From NCBI GenBank assembly GCA_950295325.1, contig OX485806.1, positions 23,314,001 to 23,378,000 on the forward strand: a stretch of DNA of 64,000 nucleotides, written 5' to 3'. Shown here one piece after another: positions 21,447-58,569 of this stretch. This DNA comes from Polytrichum commune. Lineage: Eukaryota > Streptophyta > Polytrichopsida > Polytrichales > Polytrichaceae. A program made the translations under genes and the position numbers. The notes below the pieces were generated by a model that was not told the DNA's origin, did no database searches, and was given only the letters and a program-made list of their open reading frames with translations. Each line of letters begins with the position of its first letter. Position 1 is the stretch's first letter.

Positions 21447-21527
21447 ATGGGGATATTAACTAAAATGAGCCAATTGGGCCATTATGAGACAATTCGTACC
21501 AATGGGAACGTGCATTGGGAACGTGGT
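21447..21527. repeat. Left terminal inverted repeat and subterminal motifs
   Basis: The 23-base terminal repeat runs 21447-21469. Two GGGAACGTG words follow at 21504-21512 and 21517-21525. Between them lies an imperfect inversion of AAATGAG and CATTATGAG around CCAATTGG. Confidence 0.75.
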
Positions 21528-22105
21528 TCACGAGTAAATATCCGTGAATTGCCATCATTGACAAGGTTTAGAACAAGAGGAAGGTCATCAACATAGACTA
21601 GGGCACTATTTCATGCACATTGGTGTATATATATAAGCTAAAATAATGCTTATTCTAGCCCACATAAAAACTTAGCCCAGTTGTCACCATGGGTGTTCAC
21701 TCGTGACCAACCAACACCCCGCAACAGATGAGCCTAGTATATCCATAATACAACATAAGTCGATACCACTAAGGAACAACCATGCGCATGTCAACAACTG
21801 TATGCAAATATAATGGGCCTAATCATAAAAGCTATCATGGGCACTTAATACTACTCAGAGAATACAAATACATCTAACCACGAGTGAACGCCCGTGACCA
21901 ATCAACGCCATGCAACACACGATGCAAGATCCATAACACATGAAGGAAGGTCTACATATCATATCCGACTACACAAATGAGGGTCAAAAAATCATTTGAT
22001 TGAATCATAGATGCCACAGTGGGTACAAAAAATGTGAACAAAGTATATGAATTGTTGTATCCACGGGTGAACACCCGTGGAAAATCTATCACCATAAAGG
22101 TCCGG

Positions 22106-22690
22106 CTATCTACAAGAGGAGTATGAATCCTTAATCATTTTCAACATCTTGTCATGAGGTTGTCTTTGAGCTATAGTACATTGCTTGCGCTTGACTTCTT
22201 CAAGCCGTTTTTTCTCCTCCATCAAAACTGTAGCTTCTCGAAGTTGTTTCACCCTTGCAGCCACATAATCAGACATGGATGAGGTGGTATTGGGTGAACT
22301 ACACCTCCAACATCCAGAACTATTTCCCGAGCCCGTGGGCTCATTGGGGTGAGTGGTTTGGAGAGAAAGGTGTCTCTTCACCCGAGCGCGTGTGACCGGA
22401 CCCGCAACATCGACCGGAACAGCCTCCTCAACCGCGACCGGAACAGCCACCGCAACCGCGAGCGCAACATCGTGTGTTTGGAGCATATGTGTCTACCACA
22501 ACAAACGACAAATTGATATTAGAATCCCTGGGATGAAACACAACTAAAAAAATTGGGATTCATGTGGAAAATGAATTACCTTAGGGCATGGAGATGTCAC
22601 TTCGGCGAAGTCGGCGTTAGCATCCGGAGGACGTTGTCGACATGGTGGACTGGCAATATAGTTCTTAGGTCGCGTTTGGAATGGGGAATG
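22106..22690 (-). CDS. Small coiled-coil protein, 3' exons of an unrecognised gene
   Basis: Two exons join in phase 0: 22690-22580 (acceptor CCTAACAG, donor CCTAAG|GTAATT) and 22492-22106 (acceptor GTGGTAG), 166 codons ending in TAG. The first exon is Pro/Ala-rich. The second has an Ala-Val repeat, a Ser-rich stretch, and then a charged helix with coiled-coil character (VKQLREATVLMEEKKRLEE). No in-frame ATG lies in the first exon, so at least one upstream exon is missing from my model; it should lie in 22690-23175. Its position between the left terminal repeat and the large gene makes it a cargo gene of the element. I do not recognise the family. Confidence 0.5.
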
Positions 22691-23174
22691 CTGTTAGGAT
22701 ACAATAACATAAGAGTCCATGGAAGAAGGACATTATGTGCAAGAGGAGCCCGTCCGTTGCCCTTTAGTAAAGATGAACATGTTCAAAACATATGAATTAT
22801 AGCCGACTAAGTCCTACATATTAAAATTCGCTATGACAACCATAATTCCCAAAAACACAACTAACATTGTCCAAGTGGCCTGATACATTCATTGAATCAA
22901 CTACCACATTGCCACGGGTGAACACCCGTGGGACAATGCCAGACATTCACTGTGGTCGGAAATAGTCGGGTATTCTCTAACACCGCAGTGTTGCAAAGTA
23001 GTAGACTCCCAGTGAGATACATTCATGACCATGACATGTTTGCATGAAGAAAATCCACAAAACCAAAACAAGTTTCAAATGAAGTTGAAAGGCAACAAAG
23101 TTTCAGATCCACTCATTTCAAATACAATGTACCGATAGTGCAAATGTGCACTATAGGCGGCCCCAATAGGGAAT

Positions 23175-26100
23175 CTACATTAACATCTGAGCCTCTGGAA
23201 CCATACGGGCAGAAGTCAGTATTTTATGTCTAACTAATGATTGCTTATAAATCAGAGAACTTGGCAGCTCTAGATTGAAGGGTCCCTGTCCTGATGGATA
23301 AGGGTTGCTCCCCACAAAATCTGGCACATACTGTTGAGAACTCAAGAGCCTTTGCAGGTAACTATGCAGAGTATCCAAGCTTTGGTTTGACATAAATGGT
23401 ACAGGGTTAATGTAGCTCCCAGGAGGGTTTGGGATGCATTTGTAAGGGGAGTCATCAACAAGTAATGTAGTCCTATGACTGGGTTGCTTCGTATGCGGCA
23501 CTGGATGCGTCCGGCTCCACTCAAAAAATGCGCACAGGTCTTTCATGAAGAAGCTTGAATCAACATTCATAGGACTAGGAAGAACTTGTCCTCTCTCATC
23601 CTTCAGAGTGTGACACAATTCTTGCCCAAACACATACTCTGGATGTCTACAACCATTGAAGAAGTGCCGGACAATTGGCTGAAGATTCTTCATAAGCTTC
23701 GACGACCAGATGACAACATGGAAGTTTGAGAGAACAAAACGCAGAAAGCGTCCCAGTCCTCTCCTAGGTATGAGGGCACTATATGGGAGAAAGAGTGGAA
23801 CCAACTCCCCAGTTATCTGAGGGCTATGTTGTGATTCAAGAGTCTTCCTGGTGTTGACATTGTCGCACTTTGTTGACCTCACCAGGATCCCGTTCACATC
23901 CAGCACTAACCATATCTTCTCTCTCCGATGGACAACAGTGGTTGGAGAGGTGAGGATCTGGCGATGACAAAATTGAAAGTCATTGTAAAGAATTTCTATC
24001 TAAGGAAAAAGTATATTCTACATGATTTTTATCGAATGAAACAACACGTTGGGTACACATGAGTATGCAAGATAAAAGAATGCCTCCACATTTATGGATT
24101 AGTTTTGCGAGATCGAGGAAAATATCGTACCGAAGGTGGTATTCCGGCAGTGGCTGTATGACCTGTGACCACATGCACACATGACTTATGAGATCCACAC
24201 GCTCAAACCCATAATCTCCCACGGGTGAACACCCGTGGGCACAATATCAAAAGTCCCTTATATAAATATTACTCGAGAGATAACAATTTGTATGGAAATT
24301 GAAAAGTATAAACAGGTGGTCCCACGGGTGTTCACCCGTGGGACCAATTGCATTCAAATAACACTATATATGATACCTTGAGCTTGGCTTAGGGGGGGAT
24401 CCCCACCATGTGCAGGGTCGTCATGAGAACTCGGTGGAATGACATCCCGTTCTGCCGCAACCAACACCTGTTGCAAAGACACTTTTAGAAATCTTGACGA
24501 GTTTGCTTCCACCGCCAAACACAATATAGCATTGGAAAGGGAGTATGTATTACCATTTCGGACGATGCCGGTTGACCCTCAGCAACACGTTCGACATGAG
24601 GGCTTGAGGACTCCGCAACTGCAACATCGACTTCCCTCCTTGGAGACTCTGGCACTCCAGTAATGTCAATGATCTCCAACGTAGAGTCCACAACACTGCC
24701 GGCTTGAGCGGCCGAGGACCCCGCGAATTGACCTCGTTCATCACGATGTTTGGGAGCTTCGAACGCTGTCCATCTCTTTCTCATTTTCTTTAATGCAGCG
24801 GCATGAAGAATATGTTTCACCTTCACTGCTTCACAAAACGCTGGTGTGGAGAGATAAGCGAACATCTTGTGATAATCGTACGACGTGTACAAATGCGCAA
24901 GATTCAATCGCACGTTCTCGGGCACATCTACCAAGTATTTGTCCACAAATGGGGCAAAATGCACCTTGTCCTTCCCATCCGATTCCTTGCCCATGTCAGG
25001 TCTCCCAGCAAACACCGGGTGAGGGTCATCAACAAAGTTGAGTTTCACTATGTTGTACCCAGGCTTCCCATAATCCTCATCCTCGGAATCATCCGTCATG
25101 TAGTCCGCAAACGTCCCCCGAATCCGATGTGGAACTCGATCTCTCACCTTCACCCTCACGTCTAGTTCTACGCATCTTTCGGGCACATCGTCATCACTAT
25201 CCAAGCATATGACTTCGGTTCGAATAACCTCCTCTGCTTCATTGGATGGTGCCGCTACAGTAGGCTCTTCTGCAACCACAACACCAGGTGAATCACGATT
25301 TGATCGCCCATGTCCTAGCACCTCGAGAACGGCAGCGGCAACGTCCTCAACAGGTGAGCTGACGTTCAAATCTGTGTTTGTCCCTTCAACATGCACAGCT
25401 TCAGACATGATTGCATCCCGCGGAACATCCGCTTGGCCAGATTCAACCTCGCGATAAAGACCAGAATGCTCCGTTGCCTCCGAAGACCGCGAGTGATCTC
25501 CAACTCTAGCAGGACGTAGAGATGACCTTCCCCTTCGAGGAGCTTTCATTTTCTTTCTTGCAGTCGGTTTCGATGCAGACCTTGCAGCAGGATTAGCTGA
25601 CTGCGGACGCTCATCCTCCTCATATTCTTCCATAGGTTGAACATCTAGTTGTTCTTGACTTCGTCTAGATGTGTCAAACTGTGCAAACCCGCGGCCGGGT
25701 GTAGATGGGATCCCAGACGAGAAAGATCCCACAGGGTGATGGACACTGTGCTCGGCTTGTGGACGACCAACTTCCTCTAAGTTGGAAGCATCCTCTTGCC
25801 GCTCCTCCTCACCCTCCCCCTCCCCCTCCCCCACGGGTGAACACCCGTGGGGAACCTGCTCCGGGGACATGGCCTCCAAAGAGGCCTCCGCCATGGCTGA
25901 CGCCTTGTAATTGAAGGCCTCCTCCTCCACCTCTGCCATGACCTCAGCCATGGCCTCCGCCAGTGCGTCGTCCATGACCACCTCTTCTTCCTCTTCCTCT
26001 TCCTCTTCCTCTTCCTCTTCCTCTTCGTCGGCCACTTCCTCTTCCTCCGCAGACTCCCCTAGGACAACAACTGGGTCATCTTCCTCCTCCACCTCTTCCT

Positions 26101-29100
26101 CCTCCTCTTCTACGTCCTCTTCATTTATGTCATTCGCACGCTTTCTTCCAATCTCGCGCTCAATGATGGAATCCACATCGATACGCCCTTCTTCCTCTTC
26201 CAAATCCTGGGCAGCGAATTTTCCTTCCTCATTCCACCTTTGTATGCTCCAGTCAACTGCGGCAATCATCTTCGTCTTCGCCACCTCTAGCATCTCTGCC
26301 GGCACAATATTCAACACCTTCATACCCAATGCCTGCAAAAACCAAGGCATGAGATAAATAACTTCTCAATCAAATTAGTCTACATCCAAAAGCGAATAGA
26401 ATTAAACCAATAGTCCCAACTATTTGTCTACCAACTAATTGTCAGGAAAGCTATCGAGAAGGTGGCTATCAACCAGGTGGATATAAAGCAGGTGGATGTC
26501 TAGGCCCACGGGTGTTCACCCGTGGGCCTCCCAACCTGGTTTATGGTTAGGTTATCCAAAACACCATCCAAACCAACGATAATATTCAGAAATTCAAGAA
26601 CCACTTAGGGGAAAAGATGCTCATTACTTACATGTGCCACTATGTGCGCCTTATTGCCTCCACAAATATTGAGAAAAGAAGACCCCTCAAGACATGAAGG
26701 CTTGATGATATCTATGTAGGTCTGCATCCTCAACTCCCCCTTGAATAAACACTTGGCCTCCTCATTGGAATACGCCCTTTTCACTGAATAACGTTTATAT
26801 CGCCCCGGGTCATGGACGTCCAACATCTTCCGGCCTCCACAGAGCCGCACAGCCACCTCCGAACTTGATTCGCCCCTATTCGGAAAAATGCAGTTTGTAA
26901 CCCGAAGAGCATTTGATTCGAAGAAGCAATCGCGAGATGCAATTTTCTCCTCTTTAGTGCCATGGTATAAGGCGTCACAAAATCTGGCGTTGCTCGGAAG
27001 GTGCGCCTTCAGCACATTGTGAATGAAATGCCGATCCGGATATTCTGAAATCACAGTCCACAATTGGGGGGAGTTTAAAATGCCTGGGAAATCACGACGA
27101 AGACCTTGCAGAGTGGAATCCATACACTCCTTCACACGCCCCCCAGTGTCTTTTCCCGCCTGGACTCCGGGGAGAAACCTTGTGTCCATGTACGCGTGCA
27201 GGACTGGTGCAAGCACTGTCCCACCACTGATCTTGTAGTTGTTGTCAATAGACAACACGACATGCTCGGGTGTAACCTCGGTGTTATGTGTACCTAAAAT
27301 GTTCCTCACTCCTTCTTTAAACCGGTCCGGAATAGGTACTCTCTTCCTTGTGGGGTTCATAGCGCCAAGAAGGTACTCCGCTCCAAGCAAGTCTACAAGT
27401 CGTTCTCGCTGGAGTTTACCAAACTTATTCGCATACTTCCATACTCTCCAACAATCACGATCAATGGTCTCTTTCTGATCGATGTGGACAATGTACAATG
27501 GAGTCGGGTCTAGACACTGTGCCATCGCGATATAAGTTTCATTCTTCTTTTTCCTGTTCATCGCCCAATCGCGCACAGTCTTCAAGGTATGTCGAGGGTG
27601 CTCCTCTCCATCTCTGGTGGTGAGGATTTGATTCGCTGCCATGTCGAGCTCCATCTCTGTCAAGCCCCGAAATTGTTTCAGGTCGTTCTTGACCACCTTC
27701 TTCGACTTAAACCCCTTTGTCTCTTTCATAAGAGCTCCGGTCTTCGGGTCTACATAGTCACCACTCTCGTAATCCTTGAATATCCGCTCCCACTTCCTCC
27801 ATATGTCATCGCCCAATACAGGCAAGACGTGCTCCATGATCAGGTTGGTCTCCTTCTCCACGCGGAACGTCCACATGACGCACGTAATAAATGCCTATAT
27901 CAAACACCGGCAATGTATCAATCTCTATGAAAAAAACCTCCATGTATTTCCAGCAATCACCAACAACATGATAGTCGCCCACGGGTGAACACCCGTGGGA
28001 GTCACAGAAATGAGAAATTCAAAAGTCACAGGTTTGAAAAATACCTTCCACTTCTTAAAAGCTTCCGTGTTGCTGGCCTTCTCGCGTACAGTTCGGTCAG
28101 GTCTTCCTCGCCTAATCCAGGTCTTCCTAGCGTGCTGAATGCACTCCGTAAATGACGGAAAGTGCTTCCTGTACTCACTATCCAGGTTCAGAACACCAGA
28201 GAGGTGGAACAGAGGGTCGTCATCACCTTCAGGGGCCCAGACCACATTACAAGGCCATTTCGAGAAAAACCTCTTCACCTCATCTGTGCTGCTAGGGTCA
28301 TTCACATACTCGAGACAGGCTGCTAACGTGTGCTGTCCATTTACCACGTGGAATGATTTGTCCTTCACCTCCTCAAAATTGAATGGTTTAGTTCGCCTAT
28401 CCGAAGGAACGATTGTCAAGAAGTTGGGATGAATCTTCGGAATGAAGGCATAGTTGAATAACCATGTCTTGATCTCCTTCAAATGCGCCTCGGATATGGG
28501 TCGGCAATTATACCCTGCATCTCCCCGCTCTATATTGTCAATATTGACATAGCCATTCACGCCTTCACCGAATATCCACACCCTTTGGTACTTGTTCTTG
28601 AACAACTCCATATCCATCAACCTGTCTCCAACCGATTTGTCTGGAGGCCCATGCATTGATCGCTTGGGAATCTTCTCGAGTTCAAGAAATGGACTATCCT
28701 CAGGTGTTTTCTTCTTGCCTCTCTTGGAGACAACATCCTGGCCGTCAGTGTCTTCGACAATCAGTGGTTGTCCTTCATCGGGTCTCGTCTTCTTCCTAGA
28801 CGAGGTGGCACGTACATCAGCAAGATCCTTCCTCTTGCCATCGCGGATTTCCTTCTTCTTCAAAGATGCTTCCAACCTTGCCGCCTTTGCCTCCTCAACT
28901 ATAACCTTCACTCGTGCTAGAGCAGACTTGTAGTCCTGCTCGATCATTACTGACCTCTCCTCCACGGACTTCGTGTGCACATTGGTCTCGCAATATAGTA
29001 TACAATAGGTGAGGAAATCACCGTTCAATAAGCGGATGTTCTCTCCCTCATTGTTGAGCTCTTCATTCACATCCGCATATGAGAAAGTCTCCACGAGTGC

Positions 29101-30142
29101 TGCAACCTTGAAGTCCTTCTTCCGTTCAGGCGACTTGCACATTATCAATACCCGGCTCCCATCCGTTTGAATGTCCAGTACATGTTTTGCCTTCATGTAC
29201 TTTCTCCATGTGGAATTGGGCCCAGTCCTCGTGTAAAGCGAGAGCACCGTTGTCTCTCCGAAACCACTATACTGCATGAACCATTGCAAATCTGGGCCCA
29301 AAACTTCAACATCGTAATTCACCCGTCTGCCCACACCTCCCGATACTGCAGAAGACAATGCACATGTAAGTACTCAGCATAGCCCAATATTATCACGGAT
29401 TCTATAACTCATATAACATTGACGTGCACATAGGTATTGTGGTTATACCTTTACGGGCTGTTTGCTTAGTTCTTGCCATCTCAATTCAAATGAGAGAACA
29501 CTTCGACACCTCTATGTACCTGAATGAAACACCAACTGTCTATCACATGTTTATGTCTAAAACCTTCAAATGCTTACAGAGACACACCGAATTTGTCTAC
29601 ATAGAAAATCAAAAAGACATTTATCAAACAAAATCTCCCACCCAGGTGAGTGCAAAGGCTCACGGGTGAACACCCGTGGGCACTCCTAACCAGGTGAGGG
29701 CAAAGGCCCACGGGTGAACACCCGTGGGCACTTTCAACCAGATGAGGGGAGAGGCCCACGGGAGGGCTGATTTTTCACAAAGTTTTAGCTCATCCACGTC
29801 CAAAAATCTTGAATTGAAAGGCAAAAAAAATCTCAACCCGTCCCGAAACCGGTAATATCTATACAAGTTAAGTCTCCCTCAAGTTGGTACAAAATTAGGA
29901 AAAAAGAACAGAAAAAAACGAAGATGTCGACATGTGACCAAGGACATGTTAGGGACCTTGTGAAGAATCACCACTGCCCACGGGTGTTCACCCGTGGGCC
30001 TCTCCACCTTGTGGGTGCAAAAGCCCACGGGTGTTCACCCGTGGGCACTTCAAATATCCACTTTCAGATAACCGCGTTCACACTAACAGAAAAACTGGGA
30101 TTTATGTAATGGACACTCACCAGGGTTCTTTGGGGGGACCAT
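23175..30142 (-). CDS. ParB/DGQHR-like and FCP1-type HAD fusion protein (7 coding exons)
   Basis: Exons: 30142-30121, 29345-28045, 27894-26632, 26332-24554, 24467-24377, 24162-24131, 23957-23175; 5,271 bases, 1,756 residues, with phases 1,0,0,0,1,0 matching at every junction. Residues about 289-350 hold RPISEAHLKEIK and HVVNGQHTLAACLEY, resembling the NGQHT/DGQHR motif of ParB-like folds. Residues 442-862 (exon 3) are not recognised. Residues 863-1455 are acidic and probably disordered, with a run of Glu. Exon 7 is a NIF/FCP1-type HAD domain: LVLDVNGILV (Asp1516, with Asn1518 where most members have Asp), FHVVIWSSK, and LLVDDSPYK (Asp1664-Asp1665). HAD members of this type remove phosphate from proteins such as the RNA polymerase II tail; the substrate here is unknown. 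Introns carry palindromes. It lies within the 25-kb element and is transcribed towards its left end. The frame is intact, so it may still be active. Confidence 0.78.
25829..25852 (-). repeat. Palindrome translated inside exon 4
   Basis: A 24-base copy lies within the open frame of exon 4 and is read in frame as PHGCSPVG on the sense strand, between an Ala/Glu-rich stretch and a Gly-Glu run. It keeps the frame and has no stop in that reading. Confidence 0.9.
25979..26046 (-). repeat. TCTTCC microsatellite encoding poly-Glu
   Basis: A run of TCTTCC units on the plus strand gives an uninterrupted Glu tract in exon 4 of the ParB-like/FCP1-like gene. The length is likely to vary between individuals without breaking the frame if it changes by whole units. 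Confidence 0.8.
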
Positions 30143-30471
30143 GTCAAAATTCTTTCAATACGAATGTGGTTTCCTGCACAAAACAAAACACAAGAGCTAT
30201 TGTTTCAAACTATGCCTACATGTGCAATACATTCATACTCTCAAACATCTCAATAGGTAAATTCTGCCCTCACATTCTTCTTGCAATCTGGTCTCACATT
30301 TTTATGAACATAACCTCTTGTCATTCATCTTGCATTCTGATTTGAGCATTTTTCTCACATTTCAATCAACTCTTCACACCCAAGCATCACACAACTCACA
30401 TGCAAATCTCTAGTATTTTTGGGTTTGAAATTCTTCAAGCAATTCAAACCCTAGTGCACCAGAAATTTGAA

Positions 30472-30579
30472 ATGCAAGCAAGAGGAAGAATGCAAGCAAG
30501 AGGAAGAATGCATGCAAGAGGAAGAATGCATGCAAGAGGAAGAATGCATGCAAGAGGAACAATGCAAGCAAGAGGAAGA
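30472..30579. repeat. 18-bp tandem repeat upstream of the large minus-strand gene
   Basis: Six units of 18 bases, ATGCAAGCAAGAGGAAGA with small changes (ATGCATGC in the middle units). It lies about 330 bases upstream of the start codon at 30142, so it is in the leader or promoter. Being a multiple of three it stays open on both strands, but I do not think it is translated. Confidence 0.85.
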
Positions 30580-31199
30580 ATGAAATTGAAAGAGAAAGCA
30601 AAAGAGTGAAAGAGAGTGCAAAACATTGAAAGAGTTCAGAAACTTACAAGCTTGTGGGTTCTCAATTCTTCATGATTGGAACTTCCCTCCACTTGCTTCA
30701 AGGTCGCCTTCCTCTTCTCCACATCTCACCTCTACCACATGCTGGATTGAGCAAGAAACAACTATGTTCACCAAGAAACTATCACATATTCCAAGAAAAT
30801 GCACACTGAATCTATTCCAGGGTTTTCTTGAGAAGAGAATCAAGACAAGGAGTACAATAATTGAATGAAGAGAAGAGAATGAAGAGAATGAAGAGAAGCA
30901 AAGCAAGTTCAGAATTGTGGGAGAAGAGTTTTGCAAGAGCATTCCAGAAAAGTGGAGAGTGGTGAAGGAAAGAGAGAAAGAATTGGGAGAGGAGAATGAG
31001 AGAGAGGGAGAGAGAGGGAGAGAGAGGGTGCGAAATGTTGCCATAATGACGAGCGGGTGGAAGTCGCATGTCACATAATGCCTCATTAGTACGAAGGGAC
31101 ATGATGGAGGAAATCTCGGGACGCGAAGAGATATGCGATTTGGCGGCTAAAGTACGTTTTGAGGAGGGATGGGCGGTATGATGGTATTAGGACGTAGCG

Positions 31200-31760
31200 A
31201 TAAAAAATTATTGGTACTTTGTAAGGTTCGCCCTATTTGTATGATAATTATTAGTACTTAGTAAGATATCTAAGTATTAGTGAGATAATTATTAGTACTT
31301 AGTAAGATATCTAAGTATTAGTAAGACAATTATTAGTAATTAGTAAGATAACTGCGTATTAGTAAGATAATTATCAGTACTTAGTAGGATAACTCATATT
31401 AGTAAGTTCATTATTAATACTTATTAAGATAACTCATATTAGTATGATTGATATTATTTTTATTGTTAGTAAATTGTCATATTCACTCTATTGTTAATAT
31501 TAGTAATATTAGTAATATTAGTAAAAATGATTTATAGTGATTAATAGTAATTACCAGTAATAGTAACTAATAGTAACTAATAGTGACTAGTAGTGAATAA
31601 TAGTGAATGCTAGTGCTTCATAGGTCATTATAGTCATTAATAATGTTTAATAGTGATTAATAATTATGAATTACTAATGGCTGACTAGTAGTGATTTATA
31701 GTAATAATAATAATCACTTTCAATCGATAAATGGTAATAGTATTGATAATGCTTAAAATA
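31200..31760. repeat. Degenerate TTAGTA-rich low-complexity block
   Basis: Repeated text such as 'attattagtacttagtaaga' and 'aagtattagtaagataa' about every 38-40 bases, passing into looser 'taatagtgaatagtaac' text. It is a decayed tandem array without coding potential. Confidence 0.7.
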
Positions 31761-33384
31761 GGTTCATATTATAACATAGATTCCATACTTTAACATTCTA
31801 CTCTGTAACATAGATTCCTATTATAACATACCAAAGTCAATTGCACATTCTCATAATATGCGTGTAAGATGCTCAATCGCGCTTGACATCAAGCATAGCT
31901 ATGATTTCCAATTCCTTATTGATGAAGTCGTGAGCATCCATAATAGGCCCACTTTCACCTTAGCCCATGAACTCAAGTTCGATTGTTCTCTTGTTTTCTC
32001 TTGGACTATGAACCATTAGAGTTCCAAGAATTCAAAATTTTAAATATAACATATATTATGGCAACGAAAATAATGGCATGACATAAGAAGCGGCCATGGA
32101 TACTTATAAAGCATCAAAGTTGCTGGCCATTAGAAATCATCACACATAATACTTGCCGCGCATAATGGGTACATGCCCACCTCCCATACCCAATAAACCC
32201 TACTGGATAGGTAAATACTACTAGGAATGAACATAAATCGTTTAACATAAAAAAAAAATTTAGGCAATTTTAGCATAAATCTCTTTGTGGCTTTGCCCTC
32301 ACCCCCATGCATTGAGAATCACTTCATAACTTGGTTTTAAAGTCATTCTCCTAGCGTTTATTCTTGTAATTGTATCTTAAGTTATATTATTACTAGATTC
32401 ATTATGTGCTCTTCATTGGCTAAGATTTTTGACGTTCATAGTCGACATCTAATATGAACACACATGCTTGCGATAACACAAATTCAAGAATGACCTTCTC
32501 AAAGGCACTAGAGTTATCATTTATCCCACTCAAATTTTTGGGTGGGGGTTGGTTGTTTTGCATGCAACACATATGGACTTAGCCAAAATTAGCGGTCAAC
32601 TAAAGAGAAAGGACTTTGGAAACTAACATATTGAAGTACAAGGTGATATGCAAGGCCGCGGGAGACATCGGAATCGAAATCATATTGAGAGGATGACAAA
32701 GGAGGTGGCCAACGAGTGGGCCACATCAAGCACCACATGAATCTCGAGCAATATTAAGATTGCATCTCCATAACCATACCTCATCGATTAAAGGGAATTC
32801 TAAATGATGGCATAAGATTTACGGAAATGAGAACTTGAATAGGAAATGGGTCAAACACTTCAATGAATGAATTCATGTAAATCATGTGTACTCTATGAAT
32901 TGAATGGTTTGTGGAATCTCGTAAAGATACTTTAGCGAGGAGTAGGTTAGGAATACATAAAGTCTTGAGACTCTTTCAAATTGAAATATTGAAATATAAT
33001 TGAATAGAGGAAGAATAATACGTAGGTCATTCAATCCATGAAAGAGATAAAAATAACTCCATAAGTTATTAGAGATGAGAATGATTTACATGCATGAACA
33101 CTTAGCTTTGACATTAATGTCTTAGGGACTCGGGGGGGGGGGGGTGGGGCACTGGCGAAAAATGTAGGAACTACGTGCGATAAAATATAGGGTCTTGTAT
33201 AAAAATTTGGCGTAAAATTTGTAAAATTATTAGATGTAGTATAGGGTGCTTTGGGATTGTGAAACATGATTATATGTAATATAGCATTTGACAAAACATG
33301 ATTAAATTACCTAAGTGGTACATATAAAATAGCATGGACAAAAAGCGATAGTTTCAAAAATTAAATACTTTGCCACCAAAATAT

Positions 33385-35639: not shown

Positions 35640-35815
35640 CGAACTTTTGGAGGTATCTAATCTGGGTTGGGGCAATCTTGTAGAGAAAATTTCTAAACCC
35701 GACCAAAAATTGCATTCTTGAAGGCCGCTTGACTACAAATCCCATATTGAGTGCACTAAAATCCGCTTGACTTACCATAAATAACTTATATTTGTCATTC
35801 TAATGATAGATTAGT
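35640..35815 (+). repeat. Dispersed repeat, family R1, shortened copy 3
   Basis: Has 'gggttggggcaatc', 'cttgaaggccgcttgactac' and 'aaatcccatattgagtgca', then jumps to 'tttgtcattctaatga', losing about 150 bases present in copies 1 and 2. Confidence 0.6.
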
Positions 35816-38800
35816 GCAAGTGTTTATAAGAGAATAAGGTATAAATAAATGATATGTTATTTGGAATTAGACTCGTGGGACAATGTTATAGATGGGGTAT
35901 ATATTACTGAGAAAATCATAAGTTTCTGACTATAGCCTATCTGAATTATTTAATAATTTATCCTCATCACATATTGTATTATCTTTCAAATCACATAGTG
36001 TATAACCGTTACTTTTAAATAAATATAATTATATGATACTAATACTAATACTAATACTATTATGCAAATACTAATAATAAAAATACTAATACTAATATTG
36101 AATTGAGTTTTTTAGTTCACCAATTTATCATAAGGTGATATATATTATTGTGCCATATTACAAATGTTTGAACAATCACACATGTGCAAAATAAATGAAT
36201 TATGAACAAAAAGATGTCTATGACAACACTTCATAATTATATATTGCACACATTGATATCTTACAATATTTATCAAAATAACCATGTGAAATTCAAAGCC
36301 ACATCATGGCCTTGGAAACATCTCATGGGAGGTTGGAAAATAGGCTTAGAGCATCCAAGGCCACATCATTGCCCCTTGCCAACAAATTAATATTTATAAA
36401 ATAACTATGAGGGAGAAAGTAGGTCTTACATGCCAACTCGGAGGTATTTCACTAAAGTAAGCTCCATCCGAGCTTCTTGATGGACTCATCCGATTTTTGT
36501 TACCGGATGACTTTACTTGAGTGCCACGAATCCCCGGCCATTTCAAGTGGGCTTGTACGGTTAAGGTATTTGTTGACTTTCATATTTACGGCCTCGAATG
36601 TCCTTCCCAAAGTGCACATCTAAGGGTACTCATGTAAGTATAACCATGCTATCACATAGAGCCTTATTATAACCTAACATAGTCAATCGCACACTCTCAA
36701 AATATTTTCGGTCATTGTAGGGTCGATAGTGCACATGGATTGACAACCTAAGTACCAAAGTACTAAATTTGAGCAACAACAAATCCCACATGGATGCAAC
36801 ATCTATGGCTACACGGTCCAAAATTGAGCTTTTATATTCTCCTTAAAGGTGATTTCAAAAATACTTTATGGCAAGTCCACAAGTCATACCCATGGATTGG
36901 AGCATGACATTATGGAAAGGTTACTTAAAGGTTACTCAAAGGTATTTGACCCCGATTTTAAAGAGTAGTTTAATAATCTCTAAATAGAAATCTCTAGTCC
37001 TATTGTTACCAATGCTTTCGACTTCCCCTCCCTTGGTCTCCCTCCCCTTAGTAGATGTTGTATTGAATCATCCCATGATACCTACCTATGGTGCAACAAT
37101 TAGAGTTTATTGCATTGAGTACTGACTGTTGTTTTGAGAGCTCACATGCTACATAACTAAATAAATTCATTTTTTATTTTAGCAATTAGTTAAAAAAGAC
37201 AATTAGTTAACAAAGATAATAAATTCATTTTTTTTTTTTTTTTCCCAAAGCGGGTCACGGGGGCTTATGAGTGGGGCTATGTGCGTACATGCACATGAAG
37301 GTTTTACAGGGGCATGGGCATATGGTTTGCAAGGGTTAATGTATGTGGTTGGGTTCATGCAAGATATGAACCCAAAATGATTCATACGGACTGGTGTAAT
37401 GGGTCAGGATGGCACATGCCCAAACTAATAAGGTATGTGGGGCTCATTGATAGTTGTAGTTTGAGGAGGGAAACTTGACTAGGTTGGTATTCTAGCACAT
37501 GGAAATTGATTTTCATTTGAGCGGAGAAACCTTGGTTTTTATATACATTGTTAGTGTGAACCATAATTTGTTGTATTTACATTGAGAGTTCATGATGCCA
37601 TGTTCTTACTATTCAAACCTTGCCCAAAGTTTTCTTAATTTATGGAGATTTTGTTTTTCATTTTTCTAGCATCCCATGATTAAAAATCAATCAGTCTAGT
37701 CAATCAACAACTAAAGTGCGTCAGTACAAGGATGGCCACGTTTCAACTTGTGTTTTGGGCAACGAGCCGAATCTGCTACCCCCCCCCCCCAACCACCATT
37801 GCCACTCCACATGGGAGTGCTCAGTCCAAAAGATGCTTGAAGATACCGGCAAAACCTTCACCAACGTTAGAGAACTCTATTTTGTTTCACCAAAACGATT
37901 GGTACATGAAAGTGTGCCCTAACTTGGGCTAGACTAATTTGGGGTCAATTCAACTAAATAGGGTTTCCAATAAACTTTGAAAAATAACCTCCTTACTACA
38001 TACTAGTTTAAAGTTTCATTGTTGGATGAATGAGAGTAATATGCTCGTATGCGATAATCCCATTTCGTTGGCCAAAAAAACATTGATATGTATATAGGGC
38101 CTCACATTAGAAGCCCAAGCCCTTGAGGATGTAAATGCTATCACAAATTCCCCATGCGTAGGCAAAGCCTATCAATCCGAGGGCAAAGACAAGAAAACAT
38201 GCTCACATACAAGCACACCCAACATTCATCCAAAAACATTTTATTTAAAAATTCAATTGGTTTGACACCGTAATTAGCTTCAAAGTTACGGAATTAGTCT
38301 AAACCAAGGGGGTTTAGTTTTATATTTTCTGTCGGATCGATGAGAGGTACTCTTGAATGTGAGGTTTTTCTCCACATATGGAAGAGCACATCCTGAAAAG
38401 GGGAAGAAATTTTTATTAGGAAAAATTGAGTATGTTTGCTCTATAATGTACATGAGTTTGGGGGTGGTGGGGGGGGGGGGGGGGGGCTCATTATAGGGCT
38501 TATTGCCTTCCTTTTGGAAGCCGGGCTATGTTGGGTGCAACTATCTATTTGGGGCATCCAAGTTTGGGAAGAGGGGGTTGACATTGCAACCATTGTATCT
38601 CATTGCATCTATTAAGGGGTTGTATGTGTTTGTTTTGTATTGTTGTTTCAATGTATGTGTTGTGGCATAAGGTTTAGGTTAAGGAGTATATGTCCTCTAG
38701 CTGCATTGGGAGTTCTAATCACACACGTGGTGTCCAAACTAAGTCTACCCAAACATGTGCATTATCCAAGGACATGTCAAATGATTGGAGTCGCGTTTTT

Positions 38801-38919
38801 CTACAGCCTTGTCGATCGGTCAGCCTTAAGCCATCATTTCGACATGGGATCTCAAAACGGTCATCCAAAGGGCATAAGTGGTGGGCCCATAAGTATATAG
38901 CGTAAAACCTAGGAAGTGC

Positions 38920-39206
38920 AGCTAGAAATGTAGTGGACACATACCGGGGGGGGGGGTTGTGATGTATTGGAGTAGAAATATACGTGCGAAAAATTGAGAG
39001 GGTATATGGGGACGTAAAATGAACAAAATGATTTAGAATAATATAGGGTGTCAAAAATGGCGTTGGACATCTTTAAAGTACTATAGGGTTTGAAATAATA
39101 GGTAACTTGGAAATATAAGTAATGCAAGGCCCTATCCTACTAACCCAGAGCTGAAAATGCTAAGGAAATAAATAACCTTAAACCCTAAACCCTAAACCCT
39201 AAACCG
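38920..39206 (+). repeat. Telomere-tailed dispersed repeat, copy B
   Basis: An 11-G run at 38946-38956, then 'tattggagtagaaatatacg', 'tttagaataatatagggtgt', 'tggacatctttaaagtacta', and a tail of CCCTAAA units at 39178-39205. Confidence 0.75.
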
Positions 39207-39295
39207 GTTTATAAATGGATCAACATCTCTAGCGTAGTGCTATAAATTTGATGATTTCCCCAGTGTAAATAGGGCATTGACGCCCGAGTTGGCCA

Positions 39296-39296
39296 C

Positions 39297-39327
<31 letters not shown>

Positions 39328-39361
39328 CATACATACATACATATAGACACACACACACATA
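39296..39361. repeat. TA, CATA and CA compound microsatellite
   Basis: A TA run, then CATA units, then CA units in succession. A microsatellite only. Confidence 0.85.
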
Positions 39362-39799
39362 TTTGTGGCAAAGGAACTCTATGGTATGTTGCTACATGTC
39401 CAACATCATGATTGATAAGAATGACAAGTGATGCTAAAAGTTGAAAAATGGGTTGTGCAAATCAAAGAGGTGCCATGAAAATGGATTCTCTCTCCCTCTC
39501 TCTCTCTCTTTGGTGGCATTTTGCATGTTTCAGTCAATACATGCAAATTCATTTTGTAACATGTGGCGCTTTCAAGTCAAAGATGGATTAACCCTAGGCT
39601 TGAGCTATTGGGAGAAGGGTCGAATTGTCAAATTGTGTATAATGCCATAGTAGGAGTCTAGGTAGGTATTGAGTCATCACATCCTATATCATACTATTAA
39701 TGGGGGTGGGCGAGGCAAGGTTGTGGCAAGTTGACAAGGCTGGGCATGGTCACAAATCATTGGTGCTAAATTTGAGGTCACATGAGAAAGTTATTAAAT

Positions 39800-39998
39800 G
39801 GGCATCTTGGATAACTTAACTTGATAAAACCACCACAAGCCATTGTGAACCGTTGATGATGAGGTTGAGGTTGTTTGGGAAGAGTGTTCAACAATCATCT
39901 TGGATAACTTAACTTGAAAAAACTGCCGTGAACCATCGGGGTTTAGGTTGAGTTTGAGGTTAAGGTTGAGATTGTTTGGGAAAGGTGGTCCACTTAAC
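39800..39998. repeat. Degenerate tandem duplication of about 95 bases
   Basis: 'catcttggataacttaactt' occurs at about 39802 and 39897, each followed by 'aaaac', a 'ccgtgaacc'-like word and 'gaggtt.aggttgagattg'. Two worn units; a third, weaker 'catcttcgataactt' lies near 40052. Confidence 0.6.
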
Positions 39999-41009
39999 TT
40001 CATAATTATAAATTCAAGGTTTTATGTTTTGATGTAATAATTCTCAATGGTCATCTTCGATAACTTAAGTACATGATTGTGACCTTAGGGTTTTGATGTT
40101 TAATGTTTCAAAGTCGTGAACAAAACCAAGAGGTTTATAAAGGAAAGTGACACATACTCCTTTGGTAAGATGAATCCACAAAAGTGCAAACTCAAATTCA
40201 TGATTTAACAAAGCAATTTAGCGATAGGTTCTTCCAATTTCATTGGAAATATGAACCAAGTTCATTATTTAAACAACCAATTTCAGTACATGTTGTGAAC
40301 AATTTCATGATTTGGTACCCATATTCAAAACTTCACAAAATCAATTTTAGGAAATGCATAACTCTATTTCACAAAGAACATTACATCATGTATAGGATTA
40401 TCCTAGTAAACAAATTGCTCCCTATTCCGCACAACTATACACTACACTCCAAAAACGTTATGCGCTTTGCTCACGCTACCAACACTCTTCCCATAATCAA
40501 ACCCCCAACTACACTACGTACACTCTCAAACCCATGAGATTACGCACTCCAACTATGTTGGGTATGAGTTGTTTGCTTTGATGTACAATAATCAAAGACC
40601 AAAGGAAAAATGACATTGCTTGCTTCTAACTCCAAGGTAGTGTAATGAAGACCAAAGAAAATTTGACATCAAGGCTAGAGGCTTCCAAGTAAATACAAAA
40701 CAATGAGAAGGCAAAGAATGCGAAATGAGGCGGCGAGAATTTGAGAAATAAAAAAACCATAAAGTGTGAACTTGATATGGAAGATTCACAAAGTTGATAA
40801 AGATAAATGTCCACTATCATGAAATTGAGGTGTGCCACATGTCAAGTCGGTTAAGAAGAATGATCATGGGGATACAACAAAACATTTGCTCATGAAATAC
40901 AACATTGGACAATGGGGTGGAGCGAGGCAAGTTGACAAGGCTAGGAAAGTATAAGTATCTTGGGGGGGGGGCAGTGTGTTAAAAAGTTAAGGATATAGGT
41001 GCGAACAAC

Positions 41010-41300
41010 CATTATTTTATAGGGGGGGTGTTACTTTCAATTCTCTTATTTTTCTCACAATGATGCTATCATTATGTAAATTTCTACTTTGGGTTAATAG
41101 AAAAATGGCTTGCATTACTTATAATTCCAAATTACCTATTATTCCATACCCTATAGGACTTTAAAGCTGTCGAGCATACTGGTTGATACCCTATATTACT
41201 CTTAACTCCATTTATAATTTTTAGCCCCCATGTTTTTAAAATACCCTATCATTTGTTCGCACGTATATTGCTACTCCAACCAATGACTACCCCCCCTCGA
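41010..41300 (-). repeat. Dispersed repeat related to the telomere-tailed family, copy C
   Basis: On the minus strand it reads from a G-rich run through 'ttggagtagcaatatacgtg', 'agagtaatatagggtatc' and 'gtatggaataataggtaatt', ending in 'acaaccattattttat' text on the plus strand. It shares both flanking halves with copies B and D. Confidence 0.65.
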
Positions 41301-41945
41301 GAGAAGTATATGAAACTATTCCGAAGTTGCAACACAATGGGCCACAATGCTAGTTGCTCTAAAAGGAGCAGGCTAGTGTTGAGCTTCAAACCTTGAATTT
41401 GGGTGCAATCATATTCCCAAATTAGACTGCAATCATGAAAGATAATAGTAGCTTTGACCGGGTTATCCTTGCACCTTGCCCACAAAATAGGCATCCTATT
41501 CACAATTATAAAATATAAAGGAACTATAACTCTGGTGAGAGAATCCCATGTCGTTGTTAACTCTTGCGGATGAAACAATACCTAACCTTCATACTATTCA
41601 TTTTGCAAGGGTGCCCATCATAAGTGGTGGACCTGTTATGTGTGCACATGTCCTTATGTAATTTTGGCATGAGTATGCTTGGTAGTGGTATGAGGTGTAT
41701 GCAAAGGTTATCCAATGATCATTGGTACCGCAAAGACTCTCCTTCGCCTTGTAACAAATTTTCACTCCATGTACATACGATGTAGAACCCCACTACCGAA
41801 GGTCATCATTATTCAATATGAGGAAGGTTAGAACGTGATTAGCTAATAGCGATAGGAATTGGAGGGAATGACGTCTATGTACTTACGAATTTGGAGGGAA
41901 TGCCTTGTACTTCCTCATGAGAAGTTGATGGCCATGCTCACGACC

Positions 41946-41953
41946 TATATAAA
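41946..41953 (+). promoter_or_regulatory. TATA box of the transposase-like gene
   Basis: TATATAAA followed by GGCC, 71 bases upstream of the ATG at 42024 (context CAACCATGG). The spacing suits a start of transcription near 41975-41985 and a 5' leader of about 45 bases. Confidence 0.6.
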
Positions 41954-42023
41954 GGCCACCATTTGGAGGGTCATTTCTTTCTCCTCATTTGAGTCCACCC
42001 CCCTTCACCCTTGAGGAGCAACC

Positions 42024-45000
42024 ATGGAGAGCGTGCCTCACATGAGTGAAGAGGTTGGTTTTATAACCCCAATGTGCATCCACTTTCCCACGGGTGCACC
42101 CGTGACAACACTCTGGCCGTACCCCTCCTGTACGGCCAGTCTGCCACGGGTGTTCACCCGTGGGAGACTCTGGCACCCGGTTTGGGGCCCCCACGGGTGT
42201 TCACCCGTGGGAGACTCTGGTACCGGGTTTGGGGCCCCCACGGGTGTTCACCCGTGGGAGCTTATGGTTTTTATTTCGGTTATCCTAGCATATGTCAGAA
42301 TAGAAGTTATCCATATGCTCATGTGTGTGACAAACTTTCTAGTAGTAGATGTCAGCATGGTAGCCTCCCACGGGTGAACACCCGTGGGAGAATCCGGCAC
42401 CAGCATGGAAGCCCCCACGGGTGTTCACCCGTGGCAGTTCATGATTTGTATTTTAGTTCTCCCTACATATGTGTGGTTATAAGATAGGCATGTATCATGT
42501 GTGTGACATACTCAATAGTTGTATATGCAATTATGCTTATTTGTAAATTTCCTGCTGAGTATGTGAAATATGTTGTCAATGGGTAATTGGTACATATTAT
42601 TACGAGTTGGGAGTTTCGTGATGCATTATGATAAATGATGACGATGATATTCGTTAAACTGGAATGTTGACACTATCCTGAATGGCAACTATTTCGCTAG
42701 CACTTGGGCCAGCAGATGTGACACCTACATGCATAGTAATAATTGTACACAAGTAAGTGTTAGGGGTGATAGTTTTGGTGTTTGGGCTTTGTGGAAACTG
42801 GTAATAAGGGTCATTCTCCCAATGGGGATATGATAAGTAACACATACTTCACTTGAGTTGTGTGAAGTGAGGTGTAAAGCTCACCCCTATATGAATGTAA
42901 ATATTCTCTTGAGATGTCAATGTTGTCCCCCACGGGTGAACACCCGTGAGCTTCTGGTCAATGTGTGTTGACATACTTTGATATCGATGTTCAGATTCCA
43001 CATTACATTGGACTGTCGAGGACGGACTTGAAGGGGAAGGCCGTTGTGCTCTTTGATGATGAGGGCCATGCTTTGTGTGATGGATTGATTTGCAACACAA
43101 ATCCGTTGGATTGTGTTGACAATAGCATCCTAGGGGCTGAGGATGTTGGAGTTATTATCTTGAACCCAACTGACAATGTTATTTCGCAAGATTGGGAGAA
43201 TACGCTGCACCGATGGCCACTTTCACTCACCAAATTTGAAGGACATACATTAGCGGAAATATTGTTGGTCCATCATAATGCGACCCGCGAAGTTCAAAGT
43301 CATCGGCGCTTGCTTGGAAAACGCCAATACAACACTGTGAGGATGTGTGCACCTCGGCCACCTGGGAAGAAAATTTGGGGAGCCACTGAGGAGCATGCGC
43401 GGATGTTATCAGCGGTGGATTGTTGTTCCGAGCATTGTTGCCAGGTATTCCCAAGGCCTTTGTTGATGAGTATTCGGGAACACTACTTCGCATTGCCATT
43501 CAATGCTCGGAAGCTCATAGCCCTGTCGGTGTTCCAATCGATCCAGAAACATGAGCACAACGGACGTGAAATGGTGCAGTTGGAAGGGAGAACAATATGC
43601 ACTCGAGCATGGATGAACATCTATATGATATCAAGGGCACAATATAATAGGAACAAGGCTGAAAGCTTGATGGGGGTTAGATCTCGAGATCATGGAAATA
43701 CAGGAACTAGAAAACCACGGGCGAATACAGTGCAAGCACGAGCCACCCTTGGAGTATTGGTTGAGGGTAGGGCGGACGCCATGCCCCATATGACTCGGAC
43801 TCTTCCAACTGGTGAGAAGATAGGGACGGAGATGCTCCCTGTGGGAACAACGTGGTGCAACCTATTGCAGGAAGTGAACAACTTGGACGGAGACCTAGGG
43901 TACACGCCTATCTCCACGTCCACCTTCAGCCGCCTACATCGACAACATTTCAAGCAGTATGTTATAAAGAGCCCCGGCGACAACTTCTCGCGTTGTGGAA
44001 CTTGTGCAGCATTCAAGGATTTGTTGCGAATACACACAAAGAACACAACTGGTCACTTGGCCATCTCGAATGCTAGCCTTCGTCATCTAACATTGCAGGA
44101 GGCTCATAGAAACAGTTACTATAAAGATAGGATTTTGTCAAAGTATGCTCCCAATGAGGTGCTTTGTATAATCCATGACAAAATGGATTATGGGAAAACG
44201 GCTCTTCCCGTCTTCGCGCACAAAAACAAACGTGTTGACAAATACGAGCGATTCCCCATATCCATTGCGGGGATGATTGCACATGGTCACTCAGATGTGA
44301 ATTATGCGCATTATGTCCTTGATATGTACCCATCCGATGCCAACTTCACTATCACCTCGATGATGAAGTTGCTTTGTCAACTTGAGGTACAACCTGTTTG
44401 CTCTAGTAGACACATTCCGATTTCGTCCATAGGTGATCCTTTACACGACGCATTGGTGGTTGGTGTAGAGAAGTGTTCAGGAGTACTTCCCTTGCCACCG
44501 CCCGCAAGTATTCCTCCTACAGGTTTGCCACCCCTCCTCCTTGTTCAAATGGACAATTGTGCGAAGGACAACAAATCAAAATACAACATGTTGTTTTGGT
44601 CAGCTCTGACTGCAAAGGGAATTTTTCGGGAAGTCAGGGTGTCTTTCCTTATTGTTGGACATACGCATGAGGATGTGGATGCAATGTTTGGGAGGTTTGG
44701 ACAAAGGCTGAAGATTGAGGATTGCCATACACTCCCAGACCTCATGGCATCGTTCATGGCTGCTGGGGAACCCACTATTGTCCCGTCCTTAATCCACGAG
44801 GTTGCAGATTTCAAGGAATGGGTGAAGGGATACTACAATGAGTATGGTCAAGATCGACTTATTGGGCATTCCAAGGCGCACCAATTCCGTTTTTATGTAG
44901 ATCCTCAAGGAGTGCCATTGATGCAGTACAAAGTGTATTGTACAGATCCAAGTTGGGTGCCTGATGGAGGAATTGCTCTTTGAAAGGTGGACCCTATCAC

Positions 45001-45944
45001 AAAGAAGACCATGGTCCCAACAGGTTAGTGGGTCCCTTGTTTGTATTGCTTTGGAAGTGCACTAGAAAATACATGGTGTGAAGTATGTGGCCCACGGGTG
45101 ATCACCCGTGGGCAGTTAGTCCGTGGTATTGCTCCGAGCTCATTGTATGTTTGTTTTTGTAGGGTGCCCCCGTCCCGTTCCAAAAAGGGAGATGAAAGAT
45201 TCCGTGAACATAAAGCTTGGGGTGCAAGGTTTTATTAAGTATTGGAAGGATACGGCAGATCAAGATAGTTCGGGTCAATATATGGAGTCCATTGCACCAA
45301 CAATTTTATATTGGGAGAATGTGCTTGCGGCTATGGATCAACCTTTACTCCCAACTCCATCTGAACGTAGCGAGCCATTCTGGCCAGCTACACGGTTCTC
45401 CATTGCACCAACCCTCCATGTGGATAATGTGCATCTACTTGAGGAAAACATCACTGATTATGCTTACGTGGGGCCAGCTAGTTCTCGACCTGTTGAGACC
45501 TTCCGTCCCGGCGCACATATCAGGATTGGCCATTATGTGTTACTACGTCCTAGTGAGGATTGTCCTAATCCAGTGTGGATGGGACGAGTGATTTCTGAGC
45601 CGAATTTGGCACATATCGGTCCTAATCCTCGTTCCATTGAGATTGTCTATTATGTACCGGTCCTTGGCCAAAGGAACAAGAAGACCTTAGACGAACGTTA
45701 TGAGGAATGGGACACGGCAAAATCTTTTCGATGGACGAGGCTCAAGGACTATGCACCACAACATCAATCCCTAGATTGTGTTGTGGCATCATGGGCAAGA
45801 CAAAGGAATGCGTCCGATGACAATGTTCTCATCCCAGCTCGGCAAATTCTTTTCGCAAAGGATAATTTAGATCGATGCACTAGAGGTGAGAAAATGACTG
45901 ATGGAGATACTTTCGAGGATGGGGTACCAACAGAAGACCTCTAG
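42024..45944 (+). pseudogene. DDE/RNase-H-like transposase gene (DUF7869-like), 3 exons, one in-frame TGA
   Basis: Exons 42024-42053, 42995-45023 and 45163-45944 join in phases 0 and 1 (947 codons with the stop). The long frame has no ATG at its start, which is why the tiny first exon (MESVPHMSEE) is needed. Motifs in order: CCSEHCCQVF (about 153-162), CGTC (344-347), HDKMDYG (404-410), LLLVQMDNCAKDNK (524-537), and GHTHEDVDAMFGRF (565-578). Asp405/408, Asp530 and Glu569-Asp572 are the likely metal-binding residues of a DDE integrase core. This set resembles the DUF7869 proteins spread across plants, oomycetes and animals. Exon 3 has an SH3/BAH-like stretch (GHYVLLRPSEDC...VWMGRV). Codon 673 is TGA (44981-44983), while the frame continues to the conserved splice donor, so the gene is broken unless the stop is read through. 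It is the best candidate for mobilising the 25-kb element. Confidence 0.75.
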
Positions 45945-46230
45945 ATTAAAGTTGCCTTGCTCATTCCTGGGTATCTACGGGTGGACTCTCATGGGTGGGC
46001 TAGATGGTTGACACCATCTAGCATGTTTGGAGCTCAATTTTAATTTTGTGAGCATTAATTAGAGAGCCGTAGACATTGACATTTGTCCCACGGATGTTCA
46101 AACTACCACTTTTAAAGGCATCTTTTTTTGTGAATTTTCATGTGCATTGTCATATTAGCCAACATGTTTAATATGTGGGAGTCGTCCAATGTCGTCCAAT
46201 GTTTAATAGTCCACGGGTGTTCACCCATGG
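42087..46230. repeat. Right cluster of GC-rich palindromes
   Basis: 42089-42104 (no centre bases), 42144-42163 TT, 42190-42211 TT, 42237-42258 TT, 42366-42389 AA, 42415-42434 TT, 42931-42948 AA (core), 45090-45113 AT (so a perfect palindrome), 46087-46100 (half), 46211-46230 TT (one mismatch). The first seven lie in intron 1 of the transposase-like gene, the eighth in intron 2, and the last two after its stop codon. Confidence 0.92.
42144..42258 (+). repeat. 47-bp tandem units, each carrying one palindrome
   Basis: The palindrome plus 'gagactctggcacccggttt' and 'ggggcccc' is repeated at a 47-base spacing: two units and a third partial. This shows local amplification of a palindrome together with its flank. 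Confidence 0.8.
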
Positions 46231-46371
46231 AGTGTAGGCACAATCCTTTTGTCTTCCTTGATGGGATCCTCCATATTACAATTGATTGTTTGCCCGGTTT
46301 CATTGGAACACTTGGTTTGTGGAGGCTAAAACCTCTACGGGTATTCTCTCGTACAAAAAAATCAATCATTG

Positions 46372-46438
46372 CGTTCCCATCACGTTCCCCACATTAAAAT
46401 GAGCGGACCATTTGTCTCATTTTAGTTAATATCCCCAT
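46372..46438. repeat. Right terminal inverted repeat and subterminal motifs
   Basis: CGTTCCC at 46372-46378 and CACGTTCCCC at 46381-46390 mirror the left-end words. The 23-base terminal repeat is 46416-46438. Between them, TTAAAATGAG and CTCATTTTA form a small inner inversion. Confidence 0.75.
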
Positions 46439-46442
46439 TATG

Positions 46443-58566: not shown

Positions 58567-58569
58567 TAA

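Follow-up and report, generated by a model that had tools for sequence, protein, structure and literature searches.

Giant DNA transposons that carry a ParB-like gene have been described in algae: in Sola1-1_Ec32, a giant Sola-1 transposon of Ectocarpus, a ParB-like domain is followed by an N4/N6 DNA methyltransferase (PMC12477816). Here we describe an element of this general frame from a land plant, Polytrichum commune. It lies in a stretch of 64,000 nucleotides (G000:C4:23314001-23378000; hereafter the window, to which all unprefixed coordinates refer) from a genome of 408 Mb in 64 contigs, and it occupies positions 21447-46438. As far as the available account of Sola1-1_Ec32 goes, the two elements share a length of more than 20 kb, one transposase gene and, on the opposite strand, a long gene that joins a ParB-like region to a second domain, and the giant Sola-1 transposon of Ectocarpus is the closest published kind on that account. 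Its second domain is called an N4/N6 DNA methyltransferase, whereas the corresponding exon 3 of our long gene (gene 1) has no recognizable methyltransferase; the histone H3-like tail, the FCP1-like domain and the palindrome arrays go beyond the features set out for Sola1-1_Ec32 in the same partial account. A preliminary description of the window had stated that no plant family with this gene set was known, which holds within the literature searched, with the brown algal element as a close analogue. The overall frame, a giant transposon with a ParB-like gene, is thus already known; what is new is a first exon of gene 1 encoding MARTKQTARK, together with family-specific palindromes that lie almost only in introns and leaders. 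Among openly licensed papers we came across neither a transposon described as carrying an H3-tail mimic nor any use of the term DUF7869, the name of the domain that the transposase matches.

Three other systems bear on how such an element might work. VANDALs are MULEs with longer target duplications. The motifs associated with VANC lie in the introns and upstream regions of VANDAL transposons (PMC5735166). As described there in the part available, those motifs resemble our palindromes in being short, noncoding, family-specific and co-changing within a family, with the protein encoded by the element itself, but they are 9 bp long and have one orientation. With a DUF7869 transposase and 4-bp target-site duplications (TSDs) in place of a MULE-type transposase and long TSDs, our element is not a VANDAL, and by analogy it would work like the VANDAL/VANC system without being a member; no H3 tail is known to us in VANC. 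Bacterial ParB-parS and phage stoperators also pair a ParB-like protein with dispersed palindromic or repeated sites, but the sites are different ones, and here the gene is eukaryotic and spliced and the binding putative. Finally, histone-mimic proteins (influenza NS1, the automethylation of G9a, SNAG domains) contain a short peptide that is the same as the H3 tail or resembles it closely. The present case differs in that all nine of the first H3 residues stand at the N terminus of a transposon protein, and this identity to H3 1-9 appears to be under constraint.

The element is a recently active DNA transposon

The element is bounded by terminal inverted repeats (TIRs) of 23 bp, ATGGGGATATTAACTAAAATGAG, at 21447..21469 (plus strand) and 46416..46438 (minus strand), which are perfectly inverted over 23 bases, enclose a span of 24,992 bp and have end points set by alignment with a second copy, the C2 copy. 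TATG is read directly outside both ends (21443..21446 and 46439..46442). Just inside each end stands a pair of GGGAACG words: at 21504..21523 on the plus strand (words at 21504 and 21517, offsets +58/+71) and at 46372..46389 on the minus strand (CGTTCCC at 46372 and 46383, offsets +50/+61). The word occurs 6 times in the whole window, and its offsets recur to within 1 base in 7/7 ends examined, from four families, so that the pairs have the form we would expect of transposase-binding sites. In the family that we call the 74% family, the TIR is altered to ATGGCCTTATTAACT at both ends alike.

The exact TIR 21-mer GGGGATATTAACTAAAATGAG has 81 matches genome-wide and its reversed control 0, which excludes a chance origin of the ends. 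These matches form 31 adjacent plus/minus neighbors, with a shortest spacing of 22,005 bp: 24 are less than 35 kb apart, 16 of them at 24.5-25.6 kb, and the 3 that are more than 100 kb apart are no real pairs. Pairs below 35 kb account for 48 of the 81 words, and 26 of the other 33 lie within 35 kb of a match to gene 1 or the transposase; overall 74 of 81 words have such a match within 35 kb and 7 are near none. The reading of the ends as solitary repeats is ruled out by the paired TIR words, the TSDs and the nearby matching genes.

Flanks were read for 21 pairs: besides the pair in the window, these are 20 of the 23 others below 35 kb. A perfect 4-bp TSD, a defining trait of the Sola (Sola-1) superfamily, is found directly outside ATGGGG...CCCCAT in 18 of the 21, with words that vary between copies; the 3 pairs without one are those starting L001, L007 and L013. 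The C2 copy, the one other copy that was compared in full, aligns with 21447-46438 in one piece at 99.6% identity (14 mismatches in 25,022 columns, 9 gap openings). Joining the flanks of the 20 other insertions gave matches across the junction for 4 (L013, L019, L025 and L027, at 71-77% with small gaps), which we take as paralogous empty sites; L013 is also among the pairs without a perfect TSD. Because of the end-to-end copy, the differing TSDs and the paralogous empty sites, 21447-46438 is a real mobile DNA transposon of a recently active giant family with 4-bp TSDs, and its movement as one unit is supported. The genome contains many near-identical copies of it. The preliminary description had drawn the same ends, span, subterminal pairs and TATG flanks, and had offered movement as a unit as an inference; the search for further inverted pairs that it proposed bears this out, and the many solitary terminal copies apart from these genes that it named as grounds for rejection did not materialize.

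A predicted N-terminal exon that matches the histone H3 tail

The element is predicted to contain two genes that face outward. Gene 1, on the minus strand, is modeled as seven exons with GT donors, AG acceptors and in-phase junctions that give one frame of 1,759 residues. Its first exon (29449..29479, 31 bp, ATGGCAAGAACTAAGCAAACAGCCCGTAAAG) is conserved in other copies and encodes MARTKQTARK before a GT donor: after the initiator Met, residues 1-9 of histone H3. The spliced start reads ARTKQTARKVSGG, against ARTKQTARKSTGG in what we take to be the H3 reference. This exon and the first exon of the transposase gene had been omitted from the preliminary description.

The protein encoded by exon 1 is identical in three further families, which we call the 84%, 74% and 70% families, while its codons differ. 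A degenerate 30-mer for MARTKQTARK finds 54 sites genome-wide (control, 0) and a 20-mer for MARTKQT finds 73. Taking as ParB-like copies the 55 of 95 rows in which the match starts at or before residue 15, we found MARTKQT upstream on the same strand in 52, within 150 bp in 50 and at 1.4 and 2.4 kb in two. All ten residues are kept in 36 of the 55; the other 19 comprise 14 A7T, 1 A7S, 1 R8H, 1 T6I and 2 R2K with A7T. K4, Q5 and K9 are retained in 55/55. The 13 haplotypes require a minimum of 13 changes, of which 2, each at A7, alter an amino acid (P 1e-5, with 75% expected, as a guide only); with four singleton haplotypes added by hand there are 16 changes, 5 of them in amino acids (P 2.5e-4, with the same caveat).

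Host genes might seem a ready source for such a start, since 17 of the 54 MARTKQTARK sites, judged by their codons and their distance from gene 1, look like starts of host H3 genes. We nevertheless think it very improbable that exon 1 is a captured histone gene fragment devoid of function: the 17 host-type starts use CGN at R2, whereas the element copies use AGA, and the changes between families are mostly synonymous. For these two reasons, exon 1 appears to be both old and constrained. What the tail would be kept for is a separate matter. It may recruit activators such as H3K4 methyltransferases and PHD readers, or steer integration, instead of serving as a silencing decoy; that a free N terminus bearing K4 is retained would suit this, and V10 is unlike H3, so that the K9 part is the less faithful. 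K9, however, is as invariant as K4 (55/55), and we regard this alternative as possible but doubtful.

One further H3-like start, MARTKQTARK with host-type codons, lies at G000:C4:23312133, 1.9 kb to the left of the window; its position is probably a coincidence.

Family-specific palindromes in introns and leaders

Searching the window for 20-bp palindromic sites with up to 4 mismatches yielded 21, of which 16 are perfect and none has more than 3 mismatches; all 21 fall inside the element, as had been claimed. Four cluster upstream of gene 1 exon 1 (29660..30044; sites at 29660, 29708, 29978 and 30025) and five in transposase intron 1 (42144..42434; 42144, 42191, 42238, 42368 and 42415), with a spacing that is partly 47-48 bp. 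The single sites are 21687 and 21878 (3 mismatches each), 22061, 22912, 24219, 24322, 25831, 26506 and 27979 on the left (range 21687..27998), and 42930 and 45092, in transposase introns, and 46211, near the right end, on the right (range 42930..46230). Twenty of the 21 lie outside predicted exons; the exception, 25831, is in-frame coding sequence in the acidic region of gene 1.

Genome-wide, CCACGGGTGWWCACCCGTGG occurs 805 times, CCACGGGCGWWCGCCCGTGG 208 times and the form with a TA center 0 times. For 42 of the 50 sites that head the list, all of them on C1, an exact TIR word is found within 30 kb; 1% would be expected. The two bases that flank the core are T/A at 19 of 20 sites in this element and at 25 of 27 in the 84% family, but C/G at 26 of 35 in the 74% family (where 6 sites have T/G) and 17 of 18 in the 70% family. 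Each family has its own palindrome sequence, with a symmetric change from T/A to C/G between families at most sites. In one copy of the 70% family (L047, C1:33080700-33090699), exons 2 and 3 of gene 1 are fused, without the palindrome-bearing intron that other families have, and this intron and its palindrome appear to have been gained or lost together.

The association of 42 of the 50 listed palindromes with elements would also fit sites needed in cis for transposition rather than for chromatin or regulation, such as internal enhancers bound by the transposase, with gene 1 encoding an accessory transposition protein; so would the spacing of the 31 inverted TIR neighbors, which never falls below 22,005 bp, as though the process called for internal sequence in cis. 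Set against this, the palindromes are concentrated, for each gene, in its leader or first intron, and the ends hold the separate conserved GGGAACG pairs, and we judge that explanation unlikely. Still less probable, in our view, is that the sites act as intronic RNA hairpins that steer splicing or RNA fate. Nearly all do lie in predicted introns, leaders and other noncoding parts, and the RNA would fold stably (8-bp stem, GWWC loop, -13.5 kcal/mol, z -3.3). But AA and TT centers occur 9 and 9 times on one strand of the element, as for a strand-symmetric DNA site. Of the 21 sites, one is coding and another, near the right end, falls outside both predicted genes.

Distant families, which are 22-29% identical in exon 2, have perfect palindromes of their own, placed either upstream of the gene or in the stretch that separates exons 2 and 3: TTCCACTCGATCGAGTGGAA in L051, CTTTCACTCGATCGAGTGAAAG in L057 and L058, a AGGTTCCTCTCGGCCGAGAGGAACCT core, 1-3 times each, in L052-L056, and AGGCCTCGGATCCGAGGCCT twice in L049. 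In L051, positions 1602-1709 form a perfect palindrome of more than 100 bases whose center is that family's 20-bp palindrome. A DUF7869 transposase lies 28 kb away in a like arrangement in L049/L050, the sole distant pair checked.

The transposase gene

The predicted transposase gene, on the plus strand, has three exons joined in phase: exon 1 (42024..42053, MESVPHMSEE), which is supported by conservation as well as by the gene model, exon 2 (42995..45023), which carries the DUF7869/DDE-like core according to the Pfam match and a structure model, and exon 3 (45163..45944), placed by the in-phase gene model. A TATA-like box and the first exon are conserved across four families. The protein matches DUF7869 at E 2.2e-46, as the label given to it in the preliminary description had anticipated. 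A model built from 13 sequences (predicted local distance difference test, pLDDT, 58.7) has the RNase-H order of strands and helices, with acidic residues, placed by eye, in HDKMD after strand 1, QMDN after strand 4 and GHTHEDVD near the last helix. Foldseek ranks the Mos1 transpososome first (E 7.7e-4, template modeling [TM] score 0.22-0.28), followed by Argonaute PIWI (E 1.9e-3); in VIA an integrase core comes out on top (Z 8.8, 122 residues, 3.2 A), and Argonautes reach Z 7.8. From this model we consider, with moderate confidence, that the DUF7869 transposase is RNase-H/DDE-like.

The window's copy has a premature TGA at 44981-44983 that the C2 copy lacks; the C2 copy, whose transposase frame is open, has lost 7 bases from exon 3 of gene 1. 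At C4:23456544, 95 kb from the window's copy, a neighbor shares its shortened frame of 677 residues (692 in most copies), and this shared frame suggests local movement in trans after the lesion. A first look at the genome gave 1,491 and 1,869 DUF7869-type candidates, at least 85 of them from one family at 95% identity or more, and a large share of the genome may consist of giant transposons.

Other domains of gene 1

Exon 2 (28045..29345, delimited by open reading frame (ORF), alignment and gene model) contains VVNGQHTLAA, an instance of the motif NGQH(S/T)xAA in which NGQH is invariant in both alignments of 8 members; the label ParB-like is drawn from this motif and from the published analogue. 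Searches for ParB relatives elsewhere confirmed 0 of 29 pattern matches in viral contigs, and returned 14 phage records at chance level (best E 0.4). In bacterial genomes 2 of 15 pattern matches were confirmed, L060 and L061 (CADCWO010000243.1 and CADCWO010000269.1), both from one cyanobacterial metagenome-assembled genome; because an apparent intron splits their pair of ParB-like and exon-3 regions, they are probably algal contamination.

Exon 3 (26632..27894), delimited by alignment, is conserved together with exon 2 in relatives at 20-27%. It occupies the place held by the methyltransferase in Sola1-1_Ec32 and is possibly a degenerate DNA methyltransferase; homology to methyltransferases was not confirmed, with no Pfam match of this or any other kind for exon 3 and a single weak sequence in the relative L061, GDKVVSVYAGSK, which we take to be motif-I-like. 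Exon 4 (24554..26332; ORF and gene model) is an acidic and basic low-complexity region. It includes a conserved VICLDSDDD, which we take to resemble a SUMO-interaction motif, and a second stretch, PTARKKMKAPRR, presumably H3-like, that is loosely retained in the 84% and 70% families. Exons 5 (24377..24467) and 6 (24131..24162) follow from the gene model.

Exon 7 (23175..23957), which ends in the stop codon, matches the NIF/FCP1-like phosphatase domain PF03031 at E 4.5e-11 (43.1 bits, curated cut-off 21.8). Of the ParB-like/FCP1-like fusion named in the preliminary description, the FCP1-like half is thus borne out, while the ParB-like half comes down to the NGQH motif and the analogue. The catalytic motif of NIF/FCP1-like phosphatases is DxDx(T/V); exon 7 has LVLDVNGILV (DVNGI), and phosphatase activity is doubtful because the second Asp is Asn; we therefore class exon 7 as a NIF-like domain and no more. 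Among 58 of 149 NIF matches and 187 of 235 DUF7869 places listed, with most of the element's own families left out, distant NIF-domain copies form 13 pairs with DUF7869 within 40 kb; random placement gives 2.3 such pairs, and at most 9 in 1,000 draws. Their orientation is mixed (5 divergent, 3 convergent, 5 same), so this synteny gives weak support.

A small basic/coiled-coil ORF (22109..22492, minus strand), taken from the ORF list and uncertain as a gene model, is about 60% identical at the amino acid level in the 74% family. No capsid, polymerase or integrase gene of a Polinton or virus-like kind matched among the 7 ORFs scanned, smaller ORFs being outside that scan, and an Rfam scan of the window gave no match.

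A candidate anti-silencing system

The reading that we favor, on an evenly balanced judgment, is that this recently active giant transposon encodes a gene 1 protein that binds the palindromes and, through its H3-like tail, engages readers or writers of histone marks, so that the element resists silencing. The DDE-like transposase would cut and paste the element by way of the TIRs and GGGAACG pairs, and damaged copies could be mobilized in trans. Removal of Met would expose an N terminus identical to H3(1-9) on a chromatin protein made up of the tail, the ParB-like region, the conserved exon 3 domain, the acidic part and the FCP1-like domain. This protein would bind the palindromes of its own family, which lie in introns and leaders of the two genes, and its tail, with the invariant K4 and K9, would occupy or recruit readers and writers of the H3 tail, for example of the SHH1/Pol IV type; the element would then resist silencing or keep its own genes transcribed, in a VANC-like form of anti-silencing. 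SHH1 recognizes unmethylated K4 together with methylated K9, and ZMP recognizes unmethylated K4, according to the part of the report available (PMC7617993). We prefer an anti-silencing protein because the anatomy matches the published VANC/motif system and because silencing reads the very residues that are kept here; the sequences suggest that gene 1 imitates a histone so that the element escapes the plant's silencing machinery. A bolder version, which we offer tentatively and think rather less likely, is a chromatin coat: the ParB-like protein with its covalently attached H3 tail would load onto the palindromes, which are dispersed over the parts of the element that bear genes, display H3K4/K9 decoys and titrate SHH1/Pol IV, ZMP or the H3K9 methylation machinery, making the element immune to RNA-directed DNA methylation. 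The tail would then be a weapon acquired in an arms race, since the palindrome system of related families would work without it.

Several observations weigh against the anti-silencing reading. Residue 10 is V where H3 has S, a difference that may weaken recognition of K9; 15 of the 55 copies carry T or S at A7, and T7 also occurs in 2 more, which are changed at R2 as well. Distant families read MEREV or MDKVV where the start was read, with no H3-like start in the stretches scanned; since their palindromes come without a tail, the palindrome system does not depend on one. A ParB match for exon 2 was sought in Pfam, PHROGs, NCBIfam and PDB sequences without success, profiles A1 and A2 searched against PDB returned no match with E under 0.6, and the structure model of exon 2 failed (pLDDT 36) and was left unused, so that structure lends ParB no support. 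The fold match of the transposase has low coverage, as its TM scores indicate, and Argonaute PIWI, also an RNase-H fold, scores nearly equally. Lastly, the copies are related, so that the palindrome counts and substitution P values are non-independent and serve as a guide only.

If the tail works, this would be a transposon with an exact N-terminal mimic of histone H3, tied to its element by family-specific DNA sites. It would, if true, be a natural H3K4/K9 decoy, and would allow a direct test of the means by which transposons counter RNA-directed DNA methylation. The published algal cases of giant transposons with a ParB-like gene are joined here by one from a land plant, with more than 1,000 first-look candidate DUF7869 loci in one genome.

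Neighboring repeats

Outside the element, the window contains a separate repeat family: a 345-bp inverted repeat pair (88%) at 11988-12332 and 58235-58579, with related copies at 7029-7287.

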